From a virus: a stretch of 24,173 nt of DNA. Below, one piece after another: positions 4,318 to 24,173 of this stretch (its first letter is position 1; each line of letters starts with the position of its first letter). The notes beneath the pieces were generated by a model that saw nothing but the letters and a program-made list of their open reading frames with translations, had not been told where the DNA came from and made no database searches. The stretch is taken from positions 1-24,173 of IMG/VR virus record IMGVR_UViG_3300032245_000335. One strand, 5' to 3'. Position numbers and translations under genes: made by a program.

Positions 4318-4357
4318 TTATCCTGTTGTTGAATATAAATACACAATAACAGGATAA
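4318..4357 (+). promoter_or_regulatory. Inverted repeat enclosing the late promoter and gp13 ribosome binding site
   Basis: TTATCCTGTT (4318-4327) and AACAGGATAA (4348-4357) are exact reverse complements. Including a G-U pair and three more pairs, the stem reaches 14 pairs (4318-4331 with 4344-4357), leaving a 12-nt loop. The loop carries the late promoter TATAAATA (4334-4341). The right arm carries AGGA (4351-4354), the ribosome binding site of gp13. A transcript arriving from upstream could fold and hide this site; one started at the late promoter would lack the left arm. Confidence 0.75.
4334..4341 (+). promoter_or_regulatory. T4-type late promoter of gp13
   Basis: TATAAATA is an exact match to the T4 late promoter consensus and lies 21 nt before the ATG of gp13, inside the loop of the inverted repeat. 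Confidence 0.85.
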
Positions 4358-6698: not shown

Positions 6699-9600
6699 AT
6701 GGCACTTATTTCACCTGGAGTACAAGTAACGATAATTGATGAAAGTCAATACACTCCAACCGCAGCAGGTACTATTGCTTACGTATTAGTAGCAACAGAA
6801 CAAGATAAATTAACTCCTAGCGGCACAGTCGCTAGCGGCACAACTCAAGTTAACGCTGGTAAACTAATTACAGTTACAAGCCAACGCGATCTAGTTAGCA
6901 TTTTTGGATCACCAGTATTCCAAACTAGTGCTAGCGGTAATCCAATCAATGGTGATGAACGTAATGAATACGGCTTATTAGCTGCTTACTCAGCATTAGG
7001 CGTAAGTAATCAAATGTACATCCAACGTGCTAATGTTGACCTAGCTCAACTAGCAGGCACAAGCATTCGTCCAACAGGCGATCCAGTTGATGCTACATAC
7101 TGGTTAGATTTAGCTAATACTAATTGGGGTATTTACCAATGGGACGCAGATGGCGGTTTTGTAATACAAAATCCAGATATCATTACCAGCACTACTAATT
7201 TAAGTGGCGGTGTACCTATTAGTTCATACGGTAAAATTGGTGATTACGCAGTAGTTACTACAAGCACAAGCAATCCTATTTACTATAAAGGTTATAGTAA
7301 TCAATGGAGCCTAGTAGGGTCAAACAGCTGGAAAGCAAATGTGCCTATTATCACTGGCGCTATTGCTAGTCCAGGCAACTTAACAATCTACGATAAGATT
7401 GTTCTTAACCACACAACAGTTACAACTGGTGCTACAACAATGACAGGCGTAGCGGCAGCTATCAACTCAGCAGGTATTACAGGTGTTACAGCACACATTT
7501 CTAGCGCAGGTACACTAGAATTATTTGCTGATGGTACTGCGGCCAGCTCAGGTAACGTAGCATTACCAGACGGTAAACTATATATTGCTAAAGGTACAGC
7601 CTATGGTGTAGGTAACGTTGACTTATGCGGTAAAGTTGGACTATTTACATCATCTGATGGCTCAGCTAACAACAAAACAATCCTTGGCCCAACCGTTTCA
7701 TACGCTGACTATACAAGTCCTCCAGCTTGGAGATCAACAGATACATATCCTCGTCCATATGGTTCAGTATGGTTTAAAACTTCAGCAACTGGCAACGGTG
7801 CTAATTGGGGTCTTAAAGAATATAGTTCATCATTATCTGCTTGGCAAACATTATCAGCTCCATTGTATTCAAGCGATACAGCAGCTATCCAAGGCCTAGA
7901 CCTAATAGGTGGCGGTGCTAACTTACCAGCAGGTACTACATACGTTAAGTATGACACAGTTGGTAACAACACAGGTTCATTTAAACCATATGTTAAAAAC
8001 GTTAGTGGACTATTAACTATTACAGGTAACGTAGCAGGCGGTTCAGCTACTTACAGTATTGGTAACAGCTTTACATTAGAAGTTTCAGTTCCAGGTTCAA
8101 CAGTTACGCAATCAGCAACTGTTACATTAACTGGTACTACAGCACAAAGTATGGTAGGCGATATTTTAGGTTCAGGTCTACCAAATCTAAGTTCAGGTAT
8201 TAATACTTCAGGTGCTATTTACATCAGTCACCAAGCAGGCGGTACTATTAAGATTACATTAGGTACAGGTAATCCATTAAGCACAGCAGGCTTACTAGCT
8301 GATAGTCATGTACAGACAATCACAGCAGGCAGTATATACTTGGCTAGCCCATTTACAGCACTGACTTATACATACTCAACTACAGCACCATACAGTAACC
8401 CAAATGATGGCACACTATGGTACTTCAACAGTCCATTAGAAGTTGATGTTATGATCAATAATGGTTCAGCGTGGAAGGGTTATAAAAATGTAACTAACGA
8501 TGCTCGTGGTTATAACCTATCTAACACAGATGCTAATGGGGTTATCCTAAGTGCTACACAACCAACAACACAAAGCGATGGCTCAAGCCAACTAGCGGCA
8601 GGTGATCTATGGATTGACACAGGTGATTTAGAAAATTGGCCAGTACTATATCGTTACAACGGTACTACATGGGATCTAATAGACAAAACAGATCAAGTTT
8701 CAGCTGATGGTATTGTATTCGCTGATGCTCGTTGGTCAGCTACAGGTAATGTAAATCCAATCACAGCTGACCTTCCACTAATCACTAGCTTATTAACTAG
8801 CGATTACTTAGATCCTGATGCTCCAGACTACCGTCTATATGCTCGTGGTACATTGTTATTCAATACACGTCGTAGTGGTTACAATGTTAAACAGTTTATG
8901 AGTACAGAGTTTGCTACAGCAACTAATCCACCAGCAGTATTAGCAACATGGGTAAGTCACAGTGGTGTTGATTCCACAACAGGTGTTCCATACTTTGGTC
9001 ATAAAGCACAACGTTCAGTAGTTGTAGAAGCTATGAAATCAGCTATTAGTTCAAGCACAGCACTACGTGAAGAACAATCACAGTTCAACTTAATCTGTGC
9101 TCCAGGTTACCCAGAACTAATCCAAGACATGATCACACTAAACAATGATCGCAAACAAACAGCGTTCATTATTGGTGACACTCCATTGGATCAAAGTTCA
9201 GATACTACTTCATTACAAGCATATATTAAAAATACAAATCTAGCAGCTGATAATGGCGAATTGGGTCTAGTAAGCCATAGTGAATACCTAGGTGTTTACT
9301 ATCCAAGCGGTCTATCTACTAATTTAGATGGTAACAGTGTAGTTGTTCCGCCAAGCCATATGATGTTACGTACATATATTCGTAGCGATAATTTAAGCTA
9401 CCCATGGTTTGCTCCAGCAGGTGTACGTCGTGGGGTAATTGATAACGTTAGCTCAATTGGTTATATTGATATTACTGACAACAATGTATGGCGTAGTATT
9501 GGTGTAACACAAGGTCTACGTGATGTGCTATACACAGACAATGTTAACCCAATTACAGTATTACCTGGTGTTGGTATAACAGCATACGGTCAAAAAACAC

Positions 9601-9944
9601 GTGCATCAACTACTTCAGCAATGGATCGCGTAAATGTAGCACGATTAGTATGTTACCTACGTCTAGTGCTTGATGCTGTAGCTCGTCCGTTCATATTTGA
9701 ACCAAACGACACAATCACACGTAACCAAGTTAAAGCAGGCTTTGAAGCTGTACTAAATGACCTAGTTGCTAAACGTGGTTTATATGACTATCTAGTGGTT
9801 TGTGATACAACTAACAACACTCCAGATCGTATTGACCGTAACGAACTATATGTAGATATTGCTATTAAACCAGTTAAAGCAATTGAGTTTATCTACATTC
9901 CAGTACGTTTAGTTAACACAGGAGCTCCGTTAGCAATCGTTTAA
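6699..9944 (+). CDS. gp18: Contractile tail sheath protein gp18, unusually large
   Basis: gp18 polymerises around the tail tube and contracts on infection. The N-terminus MALISPGVQVTIIDESQYTP and the C-terminal part (about 840-1081), with FIFEPNDTITRNQVKAGFEA, GLYDYLVVCDTTNNTPDRID and VDIAIKPVKAIEFIYIPVRL, are typical of phage tail sheath proteins; the terminal domain carries the links between subunits. At 1081 aa it is much longer than T4 gp18 (659 aa). The excess lies in residues about 130-700, a Gly/Ser/Thr-rich region of likely surface beta domains. There, a G-x-x-W...Y-x-G-x-x-W unit recurs (about 353-383, 569-595, 634-660, with a weaker copy at 176-211). The part from DLWIDTGDLENWPVL to FADARWS and RGTLLFNTRRSGYNV is familiar from marine T4-like sheaths. 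The binding site AGAGGA precedes the ATG. Confidence 0.93.
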   Translation: MALISPGVQVTIIDESQYTPTAAGTIAYVLVATEQDKLTPSGTVASGTTQVNAGKLITVTSQRDLVSIFGSPVFQTSASGNPINGDERNEYGLLAAYSALGVSNQMYIQRANVDLAQLAGTSIRPTGDPVDATYWLDLANTNWGIYQWDADGGFVIQNPDIITSTTNLSGGVPISSYGKIGDYAVVTTSTSNPIYYKGYSNQWSLVGSNSWKANVPIITGAIASPGNLTIYDKIVLNHTTVTTGATTMTGVAAAINSAGITGVTAHISSAGTLELFADGTAASSGNVALPDGKLYIAKGTAYGVGNVDLCGKVGLFTSSDGSANNKTILGPTVSYADYTSPPAWRSTDTYPRPYGSVWFKTSATGNGANWGLKEYSSSLSAWQTLSAPLYSSDTAAIQGLDLIGGGANLPAGTTYVKYDTVGNNTGSFKPYVKNVSGLLTITGNVAGGSATYSIGNSFTLEVSVPGSTVTQSATVTLTGTTAQSMVGDILGSGLPNLSSGINTSGAIYISHQAGGTIKITLGTGNPLSTAGLLADSHVQTITAGSIYLASPFTALTYTYSTTAPYSNPNDGTLWYFNSPLEVDVMINNGSAWKGYKNVTNDARGYNLSNTDANGVILSATQPTTQSDGSSQLAAGDLWIDTGDLENWPVLYRYNGTTWDLIDKTDQVSADGIVFADARWSATGNVNPITADLPLITSLLTSDYLDPDAPDYRLYARGTLLFNTRRSGYNVKQFMSTEFATATNPPAVLATWVSHSGVDSTTGVPYFGHKAQRSVVVEAMKSAISSSTALREEQSQFNLICAPGYPELIQDMITLNNDRKQTAFIIGDTPLDQSSDTTSLQAYIKNTNLAADNGELGLVSHSEYLGVYYPSGLSTNLDGNSVVVPPSHMMLRTYIRSDNLSYPWFAPAGVRRGVIDNVSSIGYIDITDNNVWRSIGVTQGLRDVLYTDNVNPITVLPGVGITAYGQKTRASTTSAMDRVNVARLVCYLRLVLDAVARPFIFEPNDTITRNQVKAGFEAVLNDLVAKRGLYDYLVVCDTTNNTPDRIDRNELYVDIAIKPVKAIEFIYIPVRLVNTGAPLAIV

Positions 9945-11862: not shown

Positions 11863-12228
11863 ATGACAATCTACGGAAATTTACCACCTTTAGCTCCTGA
11901 TTATTCTACTAACAACTTCTTTGAAAACTTTTTCAAACAGAATCCTACGGTTAGTGAAAATACAAACGATGCTATTATTGGCTATTTTCAAACAGTCACA
12001 GGAGATAAAGACAGCGGTACTACACTAGCAGCCGCAGTACTCTACACAGCAGGCCAACAAGGTATCGATCCAATGGAGTTAATTGATGAATTTCGTCGAT
12101 TAAAACCAGGCGAACTTAATGCCTACTTAACTATGTTCCTTAATATTAATCGTGTAAGCACTAGTCTATTAGGACTAAGTAATCAACCACAGACTAGCAA
12201 ATATGTCACAAGGGCAGTTCTTCCATAA
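11863..12228 (+). CDS. Conserved T4-like phage protein, unknown function (121 aa)
   Basis: The product begins MTIYGNLPPLAPDYSTNNFF and has a helical middle (AAAVLYTAGQQGIDPMELID) followed by EFRRLKPGELNAYLTMFLNI and ending KYVTRAVLP. It resembles a short protein that I recall between tail-tube-like and gp4 genes in marine T4-like phages, with the same DPMxxIDEF and LNAYxTMFLNxNRV pattern. No catalytic motif, cysteine or membrane segment is visible. Its place among virion genes suggests a minor tail, baseplate or assembly role, but this is inference. The ATG is preceded by TAGGAATAACT, a good binding site, 8 nt after the previous stop. Its own TAA overlaps the next start (TAATG). Confidence 0.72.
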   Translation: MTIYGNLPPLAPDYSTNNFFENFFKQNPTVSENTNDAIIGYFQTVTGDKDSGTTLAAAVLYTAGQQGIDPMELIDEFRRLKPGELNAYLTMFLNINRVSTSLLGLSNQPQTSKYVTRAVLP

Positions 12229-12659
12229 TGGGCAAGTACGCCAGCGGTAAGTATACAGTTAAGAACCCTGAGAAATACATGGGTAAACGTGCTCCTACTT
12301 ATCGTAGCAGTTGGGAATTTACATTCTGCGCATTCTGCGATAACAATCCAGCAGTACTAAATTGGACCAGTGAAAGCATCAGCATTCCTTATTTTAATCC
12401 AGTTAGTGGTAAGCAAACTGTGTATGTACCAGATTTTTTGGTAGTCTATGTAGATGCTAATCAACGTAAACACACAGAACTAGTAGAAATCAAACCCAGC
12501 AAAGAAACCACAATGGAATCAGCCAAAAGCTACAGAGATAAACTAAGTGTAGCAGTCAACATGGCCAAGTGGGCAGCCGCAGACAGTTGGGCTCGCGCCA
12601 ATGGCATGCGTTTCCGTGTAGTAACCGAATACGATATCTTCAAAAATCAGAAGCGGTAA
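12228..12659 (+). CDS. gp4: Head completion protein gp4
   Basis: A 143-aa protein, near the 150 aa of T4 gp4 (also called gp50/65), which is needed to finish the filled head before tail joining. The sequence YRSSWEFTFCAFCDNNPAVL (25-44), YVPDFLVVY (66-74) and LVEIKPSKE (85-93) gives the pattern E30, D69 and E87-x-K89. These are the core acidic and lysine residues of the PD-(D/E)xK / TnsA-like nuclease fold, so the nuclease site appears intact. The family role may be trimming DNA at the portal, but that is not shown here. The start overlaps the previous stop as TAATG. Confidence 0.85.
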   Translation: MGKYASGKYTVKNPEKYMGKRAPTYRSSWEFTFCAFCDNNPAVLNWTSESISIPYFNPVSGKQTVYVPDFLVVYVDANQRKHTELVEIKPSKETTMESAKSYRDKLSVAVNMAKWAAADSWARANGMRFRVVTEYDIFKNQKR

Positions 12660-18351: not shown

Positions 18352-19920
18352 ATGGCGACAGCAAAAGGTACAGACAGCGTTCTAGTAAAGAAACCTCATA
18401 CCAAGGAATCTTTTACAGAAGAACAACTTAAAGAATTCGCAAAGTGCGCAGATCCTATCACGGGTCCTGAATACTTTATGAGTCACTACTTCTATATACA
18501 ACATCCTACTAAAGGACGTATGCTGTATGAACCTTTTGACTATCAGAAACGACTGATACACACATACCATGCTTATCGATTCAGCATTTCACTAATGCCC
18601 CGGCAAACAGGTAAGTCAACAAGTGCCGCAGGTTACTTGTTATGGTACGCTATGTTCGTACCAGATAGTACTATCCTAATTGCCGCACACAAATACACAG
18701 GCTCACAAGAAATCATGCAACGTATACGCTACGCTTATGAAAGCGTACCAGATCATATACGTGCTGGTGCTGTGAGTTATAACAAAGGTAGCATTGACTT
18801 TGATAACGGTAGTCGTATAGTTTCAGCTACAACTACTGAAAACACAGGTCGTGGTATGTCTATATCATTACTATACGCAGATGAGTTTGCGTTTGTCCGC
18901 CCTACTATTGGTCGTGAGTTTTGGACTTCTATCAGCCCTACACTAGCAACTGGTGGTAAATGTATTATTACAAGTACACCTAACAGCGATGAAGATCAGT
19001 TCGCCACCTTATGGAAAGGCGCTAACAAACAGTTTGATGAGTTTGGCAATCCTACAGAAATAGGTATCAATGGATTCAAAGCATTTAGATCATACTGGAA
19101 CGAACATCCTGATCGTGACGAAACATGGGCTGCACAACAGCGAGCACAGCTAGGTGATGAACGTTTCCGTCGTGAGATGGACTGCGAATTTATCATCTGG
19201 GACGAAACATTAATCAATCCTGGATTCCTAGTAGAGATGGCTGGCCTAGATCCTATAGAACGTCAAGGACAGGTACGTTGGTATAAACGTCCAGAACCAC
19301 AGTTTACTTATGTAGTAGCATTAGATCCTAGTCTAGGCACAGGCGGAGACCCTGCGGGTATACAGGTATTTGAATTACCTAGTTTTAAACAGGTAGCAGA
19401 ATGGCAACATAATCGTACACCTATACAACAACAGGTAGGTATTCTAACTGAAATTACCAAATATCTAGCTGAAACAGTCACACAAAATAACATATATTAC
19501 AGCGTTGAAAACAACACAGTAGGTGAAGCGGCTCTGATCAGTATCAGTGAAATTGGTGAAGAAAACATACGTGGTATATTCCTAAGTGAACCTCGTCATA
19601 TGGGCGGAGGCCGCAGATTCCGTAAAGGATTTAATACCACAAACAAAAGTAAGATATCAGCCTGTGCTAAACTTAAAAATCTAATAGAAAGCCGTCGTAT
19701 GACAGTATGTAGTCGCCCACTAATATCAGAACTCAAAACATTTGTGGCTAACGGTGCTAGTTATGCGGCTAAACCCGGTGAAACAGACGATCTAGTAATG
19801 AGTTTAATACTTATAGTACGTATGGCACAGATGCTACAATCATTTGACAGCCAACTGGACTTGACTATGAAAGACAGCTTAGAAGACATAGTTGAGCCTA
19901 TGCCATTCTTCATAACTTAA
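18352..19920 (+). CDS. gp17: Large terminase subunit gp17 (packaging motor)
   Basis: The 522-aa ATPase-nuclease that cuts concatemeric DNA and pumps it into the head; T4 gp17 has 610 aa. The N-terminal ATPase has the adenine-binding region PFDYQKRLIHTYHAYRFSIS, Walker A MPRQTGKST (82-90), Walker B LLYADEFAF (173-181, D177 and catalytic E178) and coupling motif ITSTPN (206-211). The C-terminal RuvC-like nuclease has D325 in VVALDPSLGTGGDPAG, E386 in YSVENNTVGEA and D479/D480 in GETDDLVMSL, so all three acidic positions are present. The C-terminus is short compared with T4. GATAAGTA, a late-box variant, ends 5 nt before the ATG; TAAG within it could instead serve as a weak ribosome binding site. 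Confidence 0.96.
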   Translation: MATAKGTDSVLVKKPHTKESFTEEQLKEFAKCADPITGPEYFMSHYFYIQHPTKGRMLYEPFDYQKRLIHTYHAYRFSISLMPRQTGKSTSAAGYLLWYAMFVPDSTILIAAHKYTGSQEIMQRIRYAYESVPDHIRAGAVSYNKGSIDFDNGSRIVSATTTENTGRGMSISLLYADEFAFVRPTIGREFWTSISPTLATGGKCIITSTPNSDEDQFATLWKGANKQFDEFGNPTEIGINGFKAFRSYWNEHPDRDETWAAQQRAQLGDERFRREMDCEFIIWDETLINPGFLVEMAGLDPIERQGQVRWYKRPEPQFTYVVALDPSLGTGGDPAGIQVFELPSFKQVAEWQHNRTPIQQQVGILTEITKYLAETVTQNNIYYSVENNTVGEAALISISEIGEENIRGIFLSEPRHMGGGRRFRKGFNTTNKSKISACAKLKNLIESRRMTVCSRPLISELKTFVANGASYAAKPGETDDLVMSLILIVRMAQMLQSFDSQLDLTMKDSLEDIVEPMPFFIT

Positions 19921-19935: not shown

Positions 19936-22413
19936 ATGCGTGAAATTAATAAAATATCTGAAAGTCTTTTTGAAAAAATTCGTGATCGTTTTGAAGATGT
20001 CAGCTTGGGCGACGATAAAGCCAAAGCCACTCAAGATCCAGAAAAGGCACGTTTTTTCAATTTCGATTATATTGTAGATGACAAAAACTACGGTAATATT
20101 ACTATCAGTTTGATAGATGAAATGAGCCTTAAAGTCTACTTCAGTAAAAATATCAGTAAAGAATTAGATGATCACGAAAAGAAACATTGGTATGGGTTCT
20201 TACGTGAACTACGCGAATTTGCTAAACGTAACCTATTAAGTTTCGAACCACGAGATATTACTCGTTCAACACTTAAACATCGCGATCTAAAACAAGTAAG
20301 CAAAGCAGACAGCACCTATGACAAAGATGAAGTAGTAGCTGAAAGCAAACTCTACGGTACTACAAAATCCAGTTATGAAAAGTTTGGTCCTGTGCGGATT
20401 ATTGTACGTCATACTAAACCAGTAGCAGATGAAGTGGGCGGCGCTCGTAGTCGCAACATTAACAGCATTTACGTAGAAAATCAGCAAGGCGAACGCTTTA
20501 AGATGCCGTTTAAGAGTCTTACAGCAAGCCGCGCAATGGCACGTCATATTAGTGCTGGCGGCACACCGCACGATGAACTAGGCCAACACATTACAGAAAT
20601 GGCTACAGAAGCAACAAAACTTAAACCATTCTTAAACAATGTGCGTCATCGTACATTTGAAGACACAGAAACACAGGCTATGGTAGAGTCAGCTTTTGAA
20701 TACCACGGTCTACTAAAGAATACTTTACAACGCATGAGTGGCAAAAAAGGCTACACAAAATGCAAAGAACAATTTACAGCAACAAGTACCAGCTATATCC
20801 CAGAAGAAGACATGGATGTGGCAGCAATTAAAGAACGTTTTGTTAAACGTGTTTATAACGATAAAATGGAAGAAGCATTACCGCTTGTTTACAAGGCTTA
20901 TGATATGAAGAAAAATAATAAATTTACAGAACAATTTGAAAGCTGGGCTAACGTAGTCAGTGAAGGTGCTTGGGCACTGCCAGAAACTGATGACGAAATT
21001 GGTCAGTTGATTGATATCTTAGAAAAACCTTTACTAGTAGGTGTAGATGCGCAGAATGCTACCAATGCTCTATACAATATTCTAGGTGATGATCGTCTGT
21101 TTGATCGTTTAGGCGAGTTAGCTGATACTGATCCAGAAGCAGATGCTCGTGATGTAGTTATCAATTGGTTACAGGATAATTTACCGCACGTCTATCAACA
21201 GATTGAAAATGAAATTGGTGACGCAGATGTTCCAGCAGAACCAGCAGAAGATAACCAAGAAGTAGATGAAGGTAAAGAATTTGGCGCATACGATTATGAA
21301 AAACTAGCAATGGCACTACCATCAGGCTTAACAGACGAGAACGAAATTTTACGAGCAGGTTACCAGGATCTTAAATTAGTTTTAGGTAAAAAAGCCGCAG
21401 ATTACAAGTTCCATTACGATGAAGACTTTCCGAGCGACTTTGTCAGTGCTTATTTTTGGTTACAAAAGAACCCACAAGAACCAACAGAAGGCAACACATA
21501 TGGCTCTGGTGATGGTGGCATGGACGGTGTAGTATACGAAGATGATGACGACAATGTAGATGACGACGAACAAGTATGCATCTATTGTGGTAATCCGCGC
21601 GGCGACAAATACGGTTGCTGTGATGAAAACCATTGGACAACTAAAGGCGAATTTGAATCAGAACACGGAGTTAATGAAGATGAAGATCATGATACTAGTT
21701 TTGAAGCGATTGAAGCAGCAATTATTCGCAGAATCGCACACAGCCATCATGAACTATTAATGAAAATAGGCCCAGATGGCGTATTAGAAGCGGCCCGTGA
21801 AATAGCAGAATTCGCTGCACCTGTTGAAGAAATTGGTAGCAGTGATGTCAGTGCTTGGGTTCGTATGATTGAACGTGACGCTGGCATTGAACAAGAAGAC
21901 AGTGACCTACACGAAGCATTTGAGCAAGCATTAGGCGAAGGATACGACACACGTGATGCTTATGAATTAGATGATCCAAAACATCCAGACTTTGTTAAGA
22001 ACTATCAAGAATATAAATCTAAACACCCAGATGCTAAACTAGCTGACTTTATTAATTACATTAGAAGTAGAAAACCAAAAAGAGAAGTAAATGAAGATCA
22101 AGTCTCAGACAAACTGCAATCATTTGTAGGACAAACTTTTTATGTTCCAAAAGAAGGCAATAAAGGCACAGTATCGGCTGTAGCAGACCCACGTCGTTTC
22201 TCAAACAGTTTAGTAGTTGATTTAGACAATGGCACAACAACAGTGGTACATTTTGCGGACTTAGAAGCAACAACACCAGGCATTATTAAACAAACACTAG
22301 ACAAACTTAAATCAGTGATTACAGGTGGTGGCACTCCAAAAATGCAACCAAAACCTTATGGCCAAGTAGGCACAGATGTAAAAGATATTAAAAAATTAGC
22401 AGGTTTAAAATAA
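19936..22413 (+). CDS. Large conserved T4-like phage protein, unknown function (825 aa)
   Basis: The N-terminal 300 residues are the conserved part: FFNFDYIVDDKNYGNITISL (40-59), KKHWYGFLRELREFAKRNLL (82-101), SFEPRDITRSTLKHRDLKQV (102-121), SKLYGTTKSSYEKFGPVRII (137-156) and GARSRNINSIYVENQQGERF (169-188). I recall this arrangement in large unnamed proteins of marine T4-like phages. The rest is acidic and modular. It includes a Cys cluster, CIYC at 548-551 followed by CC at 561-562 and H566, that could bind zinc, and a helical region around 610-690. A small beta domain (about 720-765, GQTFYVPKEGNKGTVSAVAD) precedes the extreme C-terminus DIKKLAGLK, which repeats the motif of two upstream proteins. 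It is the last gene before a terminator. Probably a virion or head-assembly protein. Confidence 0.72.
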   Translation: MREINKISESLFEKIRDRFEDVSLGDDKAKATQDPEKARFFNFDYIVDDKNYGNITISLIDEMSLKVYFSKNISKELDDHEKKHWYGFLRELREFAKRNLLSFEPRDITRSTLKHRDLKQVSKADSTYDKDEVVAESKLYGTTKSSYEKFGPVRIIVRHTKPVADEVGGARSRNINSIYVENQQGERFKMPFKSLTASRAMARHISAGGTPHDELGQHITEMATEATKLKPFLNNVRHRTFEDTETQAMVESAFEYHGLLKNTLQRMSGKKGYTKCKEQFTATSTSYIPEEDMDVAAIKERFVKRVYNDKMEEALPLVYKAYDMKKNNKFTEQFESWANVVSEGAWALPETDDEIGQLIDILEKPLLVGVDAQNATNALYNILGDDRLFDRLGELADTDPEADARDVVINWLQDNLPHVYQQIENEIGDADVPAEPAEDNQEVDEGKEFGAYDYEKLAMALPSGLTDENEILRAGYQDLKLVLGKKAADYKFHYDEDFPSDFVSAYFWLQKNPQEPTEGNTYGSGDGGMDGVVYEDDDDNVDDDEQVCIYCGNPRGDKYGCCDENHWTTKGEFESEHGVNEDEDHDTSFEAIEAAIIRRIAHSHHELLMKIGPDGVLEAAREIAEFAAPVEEIGSSDVSAWVRMIERDAGIEQEDSDLHEAFEQALGEGYDTRDAYELDDPKHPDFVKNYQEYKSKHPDAKLADFINYIRSRKPKREVNEDQVSDKLQSFVGQTFYVPKEGNKGTVSAVADPRRFSNSLVVDLDNGTTTVVHFADLEATTPGIIKQTLDKLKSVITGGGTPKMQPKPYGQVGTDVKDIKKLAGLK

Positions 22414-22431
22414 GATACAATATCACAAGAC

Positions 22432-22462
22432 AAAGGCACTTTTTATAGTGCCTTTTCTTTTG
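22432..22462 (+). terminator. Intrinsic terminator after the late operon
   Basis: AAAGGCACT (22432-22440) and AGTGCCTTT (22447-22455) form an exact 9-bp stem with loop TTTTAT. A T-rich tail (TTTTCTTTT) follows. It ends the long operon that starts at 10698 and separates it from the radical SAM gene. Confidence 0.9.
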
Positions 22463-22478
22463 ACTGATAAGTAAGTGC

Positions 22479-23849
22479 ATGAATATTGTTATTTGTAATT
22501 TTCCACCTATGTGGCCTTGGTATATTCCTGCTGCTCCTGGTATATTATTGGGTGCTGCTAAATGGTTAGACATTCCAGCAGATTTTATTGATTTAGCTAT
22601 TATTGAAAAAACTGTATCTTTAAAAGAACAAGCAAATATTATTACAGAAAAGAATCCATCGCTAGTAGCATTTAGTTTATTTTCTTATCTTAGTCAAGAT
22701 CATGCTAAAGAACTAGCACAACATATAAAAGAAATAGATTCTAATATTAAAATTATAGCAGGCGGACCTGGAATTAAGGGCACTTTAAATACTGATAATT
22801 TTAATTATATAAATGAATTAATTCAGCAAGGCGTCATCGATTATTATATTGATGGTGATGGTGAATTAGCTTGGCCAAAATTTTTAATTGATTTTTTTAA
22901 AATTGATAAACAGATAGATTTTGCTGTAACAGCCAGACCTTACCTACCAGACTACACTAAATTTGATATTGACTTTTATAGAAAGTCTGCAATTCAAAAT
23001 AAAGAATTATTTCAAATTCCTATTACTGGGTCGAGGGGCTGTGTTCGTAAATGTACTTTCTGCGAAATTCCAGGTCGATGGGATTTTGTTCAACGTTCGC
23101 CTGATCAAATAGCAGAAGAAATTAGAGAAATAGCTAAATTAATCCCTGAAGGAAATTTTCATTTCACCGATAGTTTGATCAATGGATCTATTCCAGCATT
23201 TGACAAAATATTAGATCATTTTATTTCTATTAAAAAGGATTATCCTCTTATAACATGGAGTAGCCAATTTATCATACGTGATAAAAAACAATGTACTGAA
23301 GAATATTGGAAAAAAATAGCCGACTCTGGCTGTGCTAATTTAGAAATTGGTGTTGAAACTGGCAGTGACCGATTACGATTTGAAATGAAAAAGAATTTTT
23401 ACAATGAAGATTTAGACTCCAGTTTATATTATATGGAAAAATTTAACATTAAATGTTCATTTTTAATGTTTGTTGGATATCCTACTGAAACCATGGAAGA
23501 TCATGAACTAACTGTAGATATGTTTAAAAGATATCAGCAGTACGCTGGTAAAATTATTAGAAAAATTCAACTGGGATATATGTTTACTATAAATCCAGGA
23601 ACACCTGTATATAATGAAGGAATTAAAAATCCACAGTTTATTATATCTAAAAATACCTCTATTTGGTTTAATAAAGATAATCCTACATTGACATTTGAGG
23701 AAAGAATGCGTCGAAGAAAAAATTTAGAAGATACTCTTATAAGACTAGGATACAAATTAGATTTTGATAATCATCAAGCCAAACTAGAAGCAGAAGAAAA
23801 TTATAAAAACAACGGCAAAATTATTCGTTTGATTGAAAAACAAAGGTAA
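22479..23849 (+). CDS. Cobalamin-binding-type radical SAM enzyme
   Basis: A 456-aa enzyme of the B12-binding radical SAM type. The N-terminal domain (about 1-150) has the Rossmann-like pattern of these proteins: SLFSYLSQ (66-73), IIAGGPGIKG (92-101) and DYYIDGDGELAW (121-132), where IxGDGE stands for the usual GEGE. The radical SAM core has the iron-sulfur motif CVRKCTFC (Cys188, 192, 195), FTDSLING (229-236) and the SAM-contacting EIGVETGSDRLR (289-300). Then follow FLMFVGYPTETMEDHELTVD and a C-terminal helical part. Members of this superfamily methylate or rearrange diverse substrates; nothing here fixes the substrate. Base use is more AT-rich than in neighbouring genes, suggesting separate acquisition. 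It follows a terminator; GATAAGTA, a late-box variant, ends 5 nt before the ATG, and the ribosome binding site is weak. Confidence 0.88.
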   Translation: MNIVICNFPPMWPWYIPAAPGILLGAAKWLDIPADFIDLAIIEKTVSLKEQANIITEKNPSLVAFSLFSYLSQDHAKELAQHIKEIDSNIKIIAGGPGIKGTLNTDNFNYINELIQQGVIDYYIDGDGELAWPKFLIDFFKIDKQIDFAVTARPYLPDYTKFDIDFYRKSAIQNKELFQIPITGSRGCVRKCTFCEIPGRWDFVQRSPDQIAEEIREIAKLIPEGNFHFTDSLINGSIPAFDKILDHFISIKKDYPLITWSSQFIIRDKKQCTEEYWKKIADSGCANLEIGVETGSDRLRFEMKKNFYNEDLDSSLYYMEKFNIKCSFLMFVGYPTETMEDHELTVDMFKRYQQYAGKIIRKIQLGYMFTINPGTPVYNEGIKNPQFIISKNTSIWFNKDNPTLTFEERMRRRKNLEDTLIRLGYKLDFDNHQAKLEAEENYKNNGKIIRLIEKQR

Positions 23850-23877
23850 TTTGGTTAAAATATCTTATAATTACCTC

Positions 23878-23906
23878 TTGCGGCATAAATAATATTAGCG
23901 TATTAT
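23878..23906 (+). promoter_or_regulatory. Promoter region of gp32
   Basis: TTGCGG (23878-23883), 17 nt and TATTAT (23901-23906) form a weak sigma70-type promoter. CATAAATA (23884-23891), a late-type box, lies within its spacer, 72 nt before the gp32 ATG. Both early/middle and late transcription are therefore possible, as suits a replication protein needed throughout infection. The rest of this intergenic stretch shows only an AAGGAGAAG ribosome binding site before 23964. Confidence 0.45.
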
Positions 23907-23963
23907 GTAAACATGCATAACACGTTTAGGCATATTTTAAGACCAACTTAAGGAGAAGTAAAC

Positions 23964-24173
23964 ATGGCAACATCATTAGCAGAAATCCGTGCAAAATTAC
24001 AAGCACAAGAAACACGCAGTTCAGGTAGTTCACAACCAGGCGACAACGCCATCTACGCACACTGGAACATCGCAGAAGGGCAAAATGCTCGTATCCGTTT
24101 CCTTCCAGATGCAGACACAAAAAACACTTTCTTTTGGGTAGAACGAGCAATGATCAATTTACCATTTGCTGGC
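23964..24173 (+). CDS. gp32: Single-stranded DNA-binding protein gp32, N-terminal part
   Basis: The first 70 codons of a gene that runs off the right edge. The product starts MATSLAEIRAKLQAQETRSS and contains AIYAHWNIAEGQNARIRFLP (about 29-48) and FFWVERAMINLPFAG (56-70). These fit the start of the gp32 core domain in marine T4-like phages; T4 gp32 has the similar GNGQAVIRFLPS. gp32 coats single-stranded DNA in replication, recombination and repair and, in T4, also controls its own translation. The zinc-binding residues and the acidic C-terminus would lie outside the window. The binding site AAGGAG is strong. The leader from the likely promoter is about 55-70 nt, which would leave space for translational self-control, though no pseudoknot was identified. 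Confidence 0.82.
   Translation, partial: MATSLAEIRAKLQAQETRSSGSSQPGDNAIYAHWNIAEGQNARIRFLPDADTKNTFFWVERAMINLPFAG

Follow-up and report, generated by a model that had tools for sequence, protein, structure and literature searches.

The open reading frame at positions 22479–23849 (+ strand) of the window, by which we mean the whole 24,173-nucleotide stretch of virus DNA analyzed here, encodes an intact class 1 cobalamin-type radical SAM enzyme, as judged from its sequence and predicted structure. The gene occupies a variable slot between the structural operon and gp32, where the evidence supports accessory cargo that is old and maintained rather than recent. Enzymes of this type methylate carbons that are out of reach of ordinary methyltransferases. 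The leading functional proposal, tentative and somewhat short of an even chance, is a cobalamin-dependent radical methyltransferase-like enzyme that acts late on a saccharide or glycoconjugate.

Virus and genomic context

The window is a fragment, a 24 kb virus record in which the gene order (neck proteins, sheath, terminase, structural protein, gp32) is the same as in Pseudomonas phage PA5oct. The terminase large subunit (gene at 18352–19920, + strand) is 55.6% identical to that of PA5oct and 51.7% identical to that of Sinorhizobium phage Phosso. Since relatives with the same gp32 region reach 260–354 kb, the window is probably a piece of a jumbo T4-like myovirus belonging to the PA5oct group. 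Sequence comparison identifies the gene upstream of the slot as a virion structural protein gene (phrog_13484-like; 19936–22413, + strand), which forms the left border. The gene downstream is gp32, encoding the single-stranded-DNA-binding protein, of which only the start is present (23964–24173, + strand) because the window ends inside it.

The structural operon also contains a TnsA-like endonuclease domain (12228–12659; Pfam, 2.7e-23) that is 57% conserved in PA5oct. The tail sheath protein (6699–9944) is unusually long at 1081 aa and carries a sheath C-terminal domain. The window holds no RNA family match and no tRNA. Neither a partner enzyme nor a DNA-modification gene was found within it, in agreement with an earlier interpretation of the same DNA made without database searches (the sequence-only reading).

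Sequence motifs and predicted structure

The 456-aa product, read from ATG to TAA and supported by ORF calling, profiles, and a structural model, comprises a Rossmann cobalamin-type domain (residues 1 to ~140), a radical SAM barrel (~178–380), and C-terminal helices. Its CX3CX(phi)C cluster-binding motif (C188-x3-C192-x-F-C195; codons at 23040–23063, + strand) reads C188-V-R-K-C192-T-F-C195, and the SAM-contact strand IGVETGS (residues 290–296) lies C-terminal to it. Both elements are invariant among the site-A orthologues, that is, the orthologues located in the slot between the terminator and gp32. The three cysteines show no variation across 17 aligned relatives, F194 is likewise invariant in the alignments, and motif and TIM-barrel-type core together place the protein in the radical SAM superfamily. 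The Pfam Radical_SAM profile matches at E = 1.4e-16 (61.6 bits; cut-off 29.5). Values of dN/dS of 0.08 and 0.10 indicate that the enzyme is under purifying selection.

The AlphaFold2 model (pLDDT 89.6, pTM 0.87) is confident over nearly the whole length. Its strands run in the order E3-7, E34-38, E62-66, E91-95, and E122-124, five Rossmann strands followed by the radical SAM barrel, so that an N-terminal domain of cobalamin-binding type precedes the core as in class 1 enzymes. The structures of OxsB, TsrM, and MgmA align from residue 1 or 2 of the enzyme. The sequence-only reading had described the cluster motif, the SAM-contact motif, and the N-terminal domain as intact; motif invariance, Pfam, and a confident model of the whole Rossmann domain bear this out.

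Among solved structures, VIA-align, in whose results folds missed by Foldseek cannot appear, ranks AprD4 (6fd2) on top (Z 25.4, rmsd 3.3 over 376 residues), with MgmA at 23.5, OxsB at 23.1, and TsrM at 22.9. The architecture is also common to MiaB and RimO (Z 20–22). Foldseek places MgmA and TsrM first, with MgmA as the closest solved structure. MgmA is a peptide glutamine methylase and AprD4 a radical SAM diol-dehydratase acting on an aminoglycoside sugar. AprD4 shares its fold with B12-type enzymes but is not known to use cobalamin.

In cobalamin-dependent enzymes of this class, the position beneath the cobalt is filled by a residue of the loop after strand 3, Trp76 in TokK (review, PMC13331322). 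In the window enzyme, the predicted counterpart is Tyr70 (codon at 22686–22688, + strand), which lies in the loop after strand 3 of the model, aligns with TokK Trp76 in a HMMER alignment of E 0.0075, and is invariant among site-A orthologues. The sequence-only reading held that loss of cobalamin-contact residues in a model would argue against B12 use. Model and alignment retain the fold and an aromatic residue at the predicted lower-face position. The Pfam B12-binding profile stays below its cut-off in the window enzyme (E = 1.3e-5; 25.4 bits vs 32.1). The orthologue in L007 exceeds that cut-off with 36.7 bits.

Relation to curated families and known systems

The window enzyme reaches no curated family at NCBIfam cut-offs. 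The best score belongs to the PhpK model (TIGR04479; 98 bits over residues 52–352, cut-off 600), which all 17 aligned relatives also match; no phosphinate pathway genes were seen, a difference from PhpK-family P-methyltransferases. MgmA (TIGR04014) scores 45.6 bits against a cut-off of 360, and AprD4 (NF033070) 21.4 against 500. The remaining NCBIfam matches, to a RiPP C-methyltransferase and B12-binding radical SAM proteins, are all far below cut-off, and lipid and hopanoid B12 enzymes occur among the weak family matches.

With the class 1 enzymes OxsB, TsrM, TokK, CysS, and MgmA, the protein has in common the cluster motif, the Rossmann domain, a candidate lower-face residue, and the overall fold. 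In contrast to them, it is only 14–20% identical over the aligned part, reaches no family model, is phage-borne in a gp32 cargo slot behind a late-promoter box, and has relatives paired with a protein resembling carbohydrate-binding module family 60 (CBM60).

Radical SAM genes have been reported as variable cassettes in aquatic myophages, in the host-recognition regions of pelagimyophages (PMC7029224). Those cassettes lie in a host-recognition cluster and not in the gp32 slot, and that report does not mention cobalamin or B12, nor do the passages considered describe the partner protein. In the literature searched, neither this B12-type family nor the enzyme–partner pair was found described in phages.

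A variable cargo slot beside gp32

The slot opens behind the intrinsic terminator of the structural operon (22432–22455, + strand), predicted as a 9-bp stem with a T-rich tail. It closes at the gp32 leader/promoter region (23850–23963, + strand), which directly follows the terminator in empty-site relatives. Terminator-like sites across the region are no more numerous than in shuffled sequence; the element at this position recurs in orthologues and in empty-site relatives, which upholds the earlier placement of the gene behind a terminator. The borders are precise, and most carriers, as well as the nearest relatives with an empty site, have them in common: a terminator of similar form and the same leader of gp32. 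Orthologues that are 48–57% identical occupy it in the IMG/VR stretches L001, L002, L004, L006, L007, and L094, and the more distant relative in L120 does so as well.

PA5oct and Phosso have no copy of the enzyme gene between the structural gene and gp32. In a survey of gp32 loci, a sample weighted to gp32s resembling the one in L001, the slot could be seen in 61 relatives among the matches listed: 44 slots were empty, 17 held other genes, and none held the enzyme. Such variability fits the proposal, made earlier from location, that the gene is a candidate for cargo.

Base composition sets the gene apart, as the sequence-only reading had noticed. Its GC content of 29.8% and GC3 of 16.8% are the lowest among 18 genes tested, the others having 37–45% GC. 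Synonymous codon-usage likelihood does not mark it as an outlier, and the signal is one of base composition. The gene is AT-richer than its neighbors in four of five orthologues, L007 being the exception. Conservation at this place in all related phages with the same base composition, which the sequence-only reading would have counted against recent cargo, is not the pattern found: the slot lacks the gene in all 61 sampled relatives, in PA5oct, and in Phosso, and the gene is AT-richer in most carriers. The cargo part of the earlier claim is thereby supported, but recency is not, given that several lineages keep the gene in the same slot at 48–57% identity, with a conserved promoter box and the low dN/dS values above. 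Absence in relatives and base composition, taken together with purifying selection, support old and maintained cargo.

Between the window and L002, the enzyme is 56.6% and the terminase 62.5% identical; between the window and L007, the values are 49.1% and 84.7%. These distances suggest that the enzyme has moved horizontally among lineages. A branch with 97/97 support in the tree also points to such movement, but the AU test (p 0.098) does not reject the alternative.

The gap between gp32 and RecA is variable too: in the gp32 survey, 38 of 55 such gaps among the matches listed were occupied, 15 of them with a radical SAM gene. With both gaps around it variable, gp32 sits amid a hotspot of cargo in which radical SAM genes are frequent. 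In L001 and L007, two other radical SAM genes, an SDR gene, and a sulfotransferase-like ORF lie just past gp32, a region outside the window. In relatives, the gp32–RecA gap repeatedly holds sulfotransferase-like, twitch radical SAM, SDR, and SPASM radical SAM genes together as a cassette (L001 3659–6127; L007 10482–13705; many of L013–L092). In the slot on the other side of gp32, behind the structural gene, alternative cargo at L018 3987–5919 and similar loci consists of two overlapping genes for proteins of ~325 and 334 aa with no Pfam match.

Late-promoter-like box and probable late expression

A late-promoter-like box, GATAAGTA (22466–22473, + strand), lies 5 bp before the enzyme ATG and is conserved in L001, L004, L006, L007, L094, and L120. 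The window contains 10 sites of the KATAARTA motif, overall no more than in shuffled sequence. Their placement is informative: 8 of the 10 lie 5–33 bp ahead of a gene start and in matching orientation (binomial P 3e-11), at 1882–1889 (− strand) and at 4334, 6658, 10698, 13163, 18339, 19921, and 22466 (+ strand). The genes concerned include those for the sheath, the terminase, structural proteins, and the radical SAM enzyme. In the related jumbo phage CBB, an ATAAATA motif has been proposed for late genes (PMC5259590).

We infer that the enzyme gene is transcribed late, together with the terminase and structural genes. For the terminase, the gene starting at 19936, and the radical SAM gene, the distance from box to ATG is 5–7 bp, a spacing that leaves no room for a ribosome-binding site and suggests leaderless late mRNAs; the enzyme mRNA is possibly one of them. 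Late transcription points to the virion, surface glycans, or some component present at lysis as a likelier target than host metabolism rewired at an early stage.

The wider family and its CBM60-like partner

A profile search finds relatives of the enzyme encoded in 492 IMG/VR stretches. Single-protein and three-sequence queries had returned few viral relatives and none in genome contigs, and wider alignments found more. Among 50,697 deposited phage records, Streptomyces phage SF3 provides a 26% match and a faecal phage a short one, with no others. A single clade (100/100) unites the site-A enzymes; at its base stands L120, which retains a weak version of the partner protein.

This partner, a protein of ~170 aa here called S, is encoded near the enzyme, mostly directly beside it, in 47 of 71 loci by BLAST clustering, and within 300 bp of it in 48 of 83 when one representative per distinct enzyme is taken. 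Across 80 gp32 loci, S is present only beside the enzyme. A scan with S as query, which used a closer subset of the S alignment and covers mainly phages with S after RecA, yielded 28 loci; nearly all that have room show the enzyme gene adjoining, typically with an overlap of a few bases. The enzyme is missing beside S in L211/L212 and beside several S copies of jumbo genomes, and deposited phages gave no match to two S queries.

Pfam gives no match to S above cut-off, and PHROGs none that is significant. The S model (pLDDT 84) aligns with the CBM60 structure 2xfd at Z 10.1, with an rmsd of 2.5 over 101 residues, and the next unrelated match reaches Z 5.3. CBM60 is a calcium-dependent carbohydrate-binding module. 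The best S member scores E 0.0047 against Pfam CBM60 (17.8 bits, below the cut-off of 28.2), and it is the fold match that supports the relationship. Next to this member lies a gene with a weak match to the Anp1 glycosyltransferase family. Where S stands unpaired in jumbo genomes, its neighbors are genes with weak matches to the Anp1 and cytidylyltransferase families, an aminotransferase-like gene, and a SPASM radical SAM gene. Among 70 distinct neighbor proteins of the enzyme family, other radical SAM enzymes dominate (16), and glycan genes are few.

Further family members were seen in other settings. In a different phage group, carbamoyltransferase and phosphomannomutase-like genes lie beside a radical SAM/S pair (L151 5900–8172, L154 6085–7599). 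A Bdellovibrionia MAG contig of chromosomal appearance (L103 5773–8737) carries two tandem family-related B12-type radical SAM genes and no S. The 349 kb jumbo genome G012 has 4 matches to the B12-type family, and G001, G005, and G006 carry a longer, distant type with reading frames of 628–646 aa.

S is absent from the window and from beside the window-clade enzymes, and a search of the full contigs carrying close orthologues, which are fragments of up to 99.6 kb, did not find it either. The N-terminal segment between strands 2 and 3 measures 17–25 residues in the window branch vs 43–57 in all S-paired enzymes. The short form goes with absence of S (Fisher p 9e-4, kinship ignored; the short form amounts to roughly one clade plus L105). 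The window enzyme looks like a form that works without a partner beside it, S elsewhere in the genome being possible, and its clade would have lost, or never gained, S at this position. That the window carries a stripped-down, partner-free, late-expressed version is part of one reading that is less likely than not.

Proposed mechanism and substrate

Fold and motifs predict SAM cleavage and cobalamin-assisted methyl transfer. In the proposed mechanism, a [4Fe-4S] cluster of the enzyme would hold SAM, and cobalamin would be bound base-off above Tyr70. A 5'-deoxyadenosyl radical would form and abstract a hydrogen from an unactivated substrate carbon, after which a methyl group would pass from methylcobalamin to the substrate, or a related radical rearrangement would occur instead. 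For the phage, the probable outcome would be a late change in the chemistry of the surface or the virion.

The sequence-only reading had left the substrate open. Several classes indeed remain in play, with family context placing sugar against peptide. A saccharide or glycoconjugate, be it a cell-surface glycan, a glycosylated virion part, or a precursor, is a plausible choice that we hold at less than even confidence. It is favored because the small CBM60-fold protein is encoded next to most relatives in other viruses, and the top VIA-align match, AprD4, acts on an aminoglycoside sugar. Against it count the lack of S in the window clade, the few glycan genes among neighbors, the peptide methylase MgmA as Foldseek's closest structure, and the S copies beside SPASM radical SAM and aminotransferase-like genes, a setting that fits peptide modification.

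Modification of a protein or peptide in the manner of MgmA or RiPP enzymes is an unlikely but credible alternative. The enzyme would C-methylate a virion or host protein, and S would be the substrate or a scaffold shared by radical SAM enzymes in relatives. This possibility is kept alive by the many radical SAM neighbors and the similarity to MgmA, and the RiPP C-methyltransferase matches, the overlap of the S and enzyme genes, and expression alongside structural genes, which suits a virion target, are consistent with it. However, S has a carbohydrate-binding fold, glycosyltransferase-like and cytidylyltransferase-like genes adjoin other copies of it, and the window has neither S nor an obvious precursor peptide gene beside the enzyme.

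The best VIA-align match being to AprD4, and the B12-binding score of the window enzyme being below cut-off, a non-methylating AprD4-type activity without cobalamin (a sugar or nucleotide sugar being dehydrated, epimerized, or deoxygenated) also deserves mention, but it is clearly unlikely. The lower-face residue appears to be kept, with Tyr70 invariant at the predicted position among site-A orthologues; the B12-binding profile is exceeded in the L007 orthologue, and the AprD4 family model itself is far from reached.

Action on nucleic acid, a host cofactor, or a lipid during infection, as by MiaB/RimO-like or HpnJ-like enzymes, is improbable. The architecture common to MiaB and RimO and the lipid and hopanoid B12 enzymes among weak matches speak for it. 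Yet the N-terminal three-cysteine domain of MiaB and RimO has no Pfam match here, and C6 is the sole cysteine ahead of the radical SAM motif, too few to build the second cluster that methylthiotransferases have; nor is any DNA-modification or lipid gene nearby, and all scores are far below cut-offs. Counter-defence or exclusion, in which an enzyme of common ancestry with a candidate defence protein would block a host system or superinfecting phages, is highly improbable: a weak PADLOC match to the candidate PDC-M51A (30 bits) and the variable hotspot location hint at it, but any B12-type radical SAM protein might give that match, and a late promoter speaks against early counter-defence.

An extensive enzyme family of this sort among uncultured viruses, associated with a carbohydrate-binding-type protein and moving around gp32, would imply that phages often apply radical chemistry to components of the cell surface or the virion, and would link infection with the host's vitamin B12 supply. 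The enzyme–S gene pair offers a direct, testable handle on the substrate.
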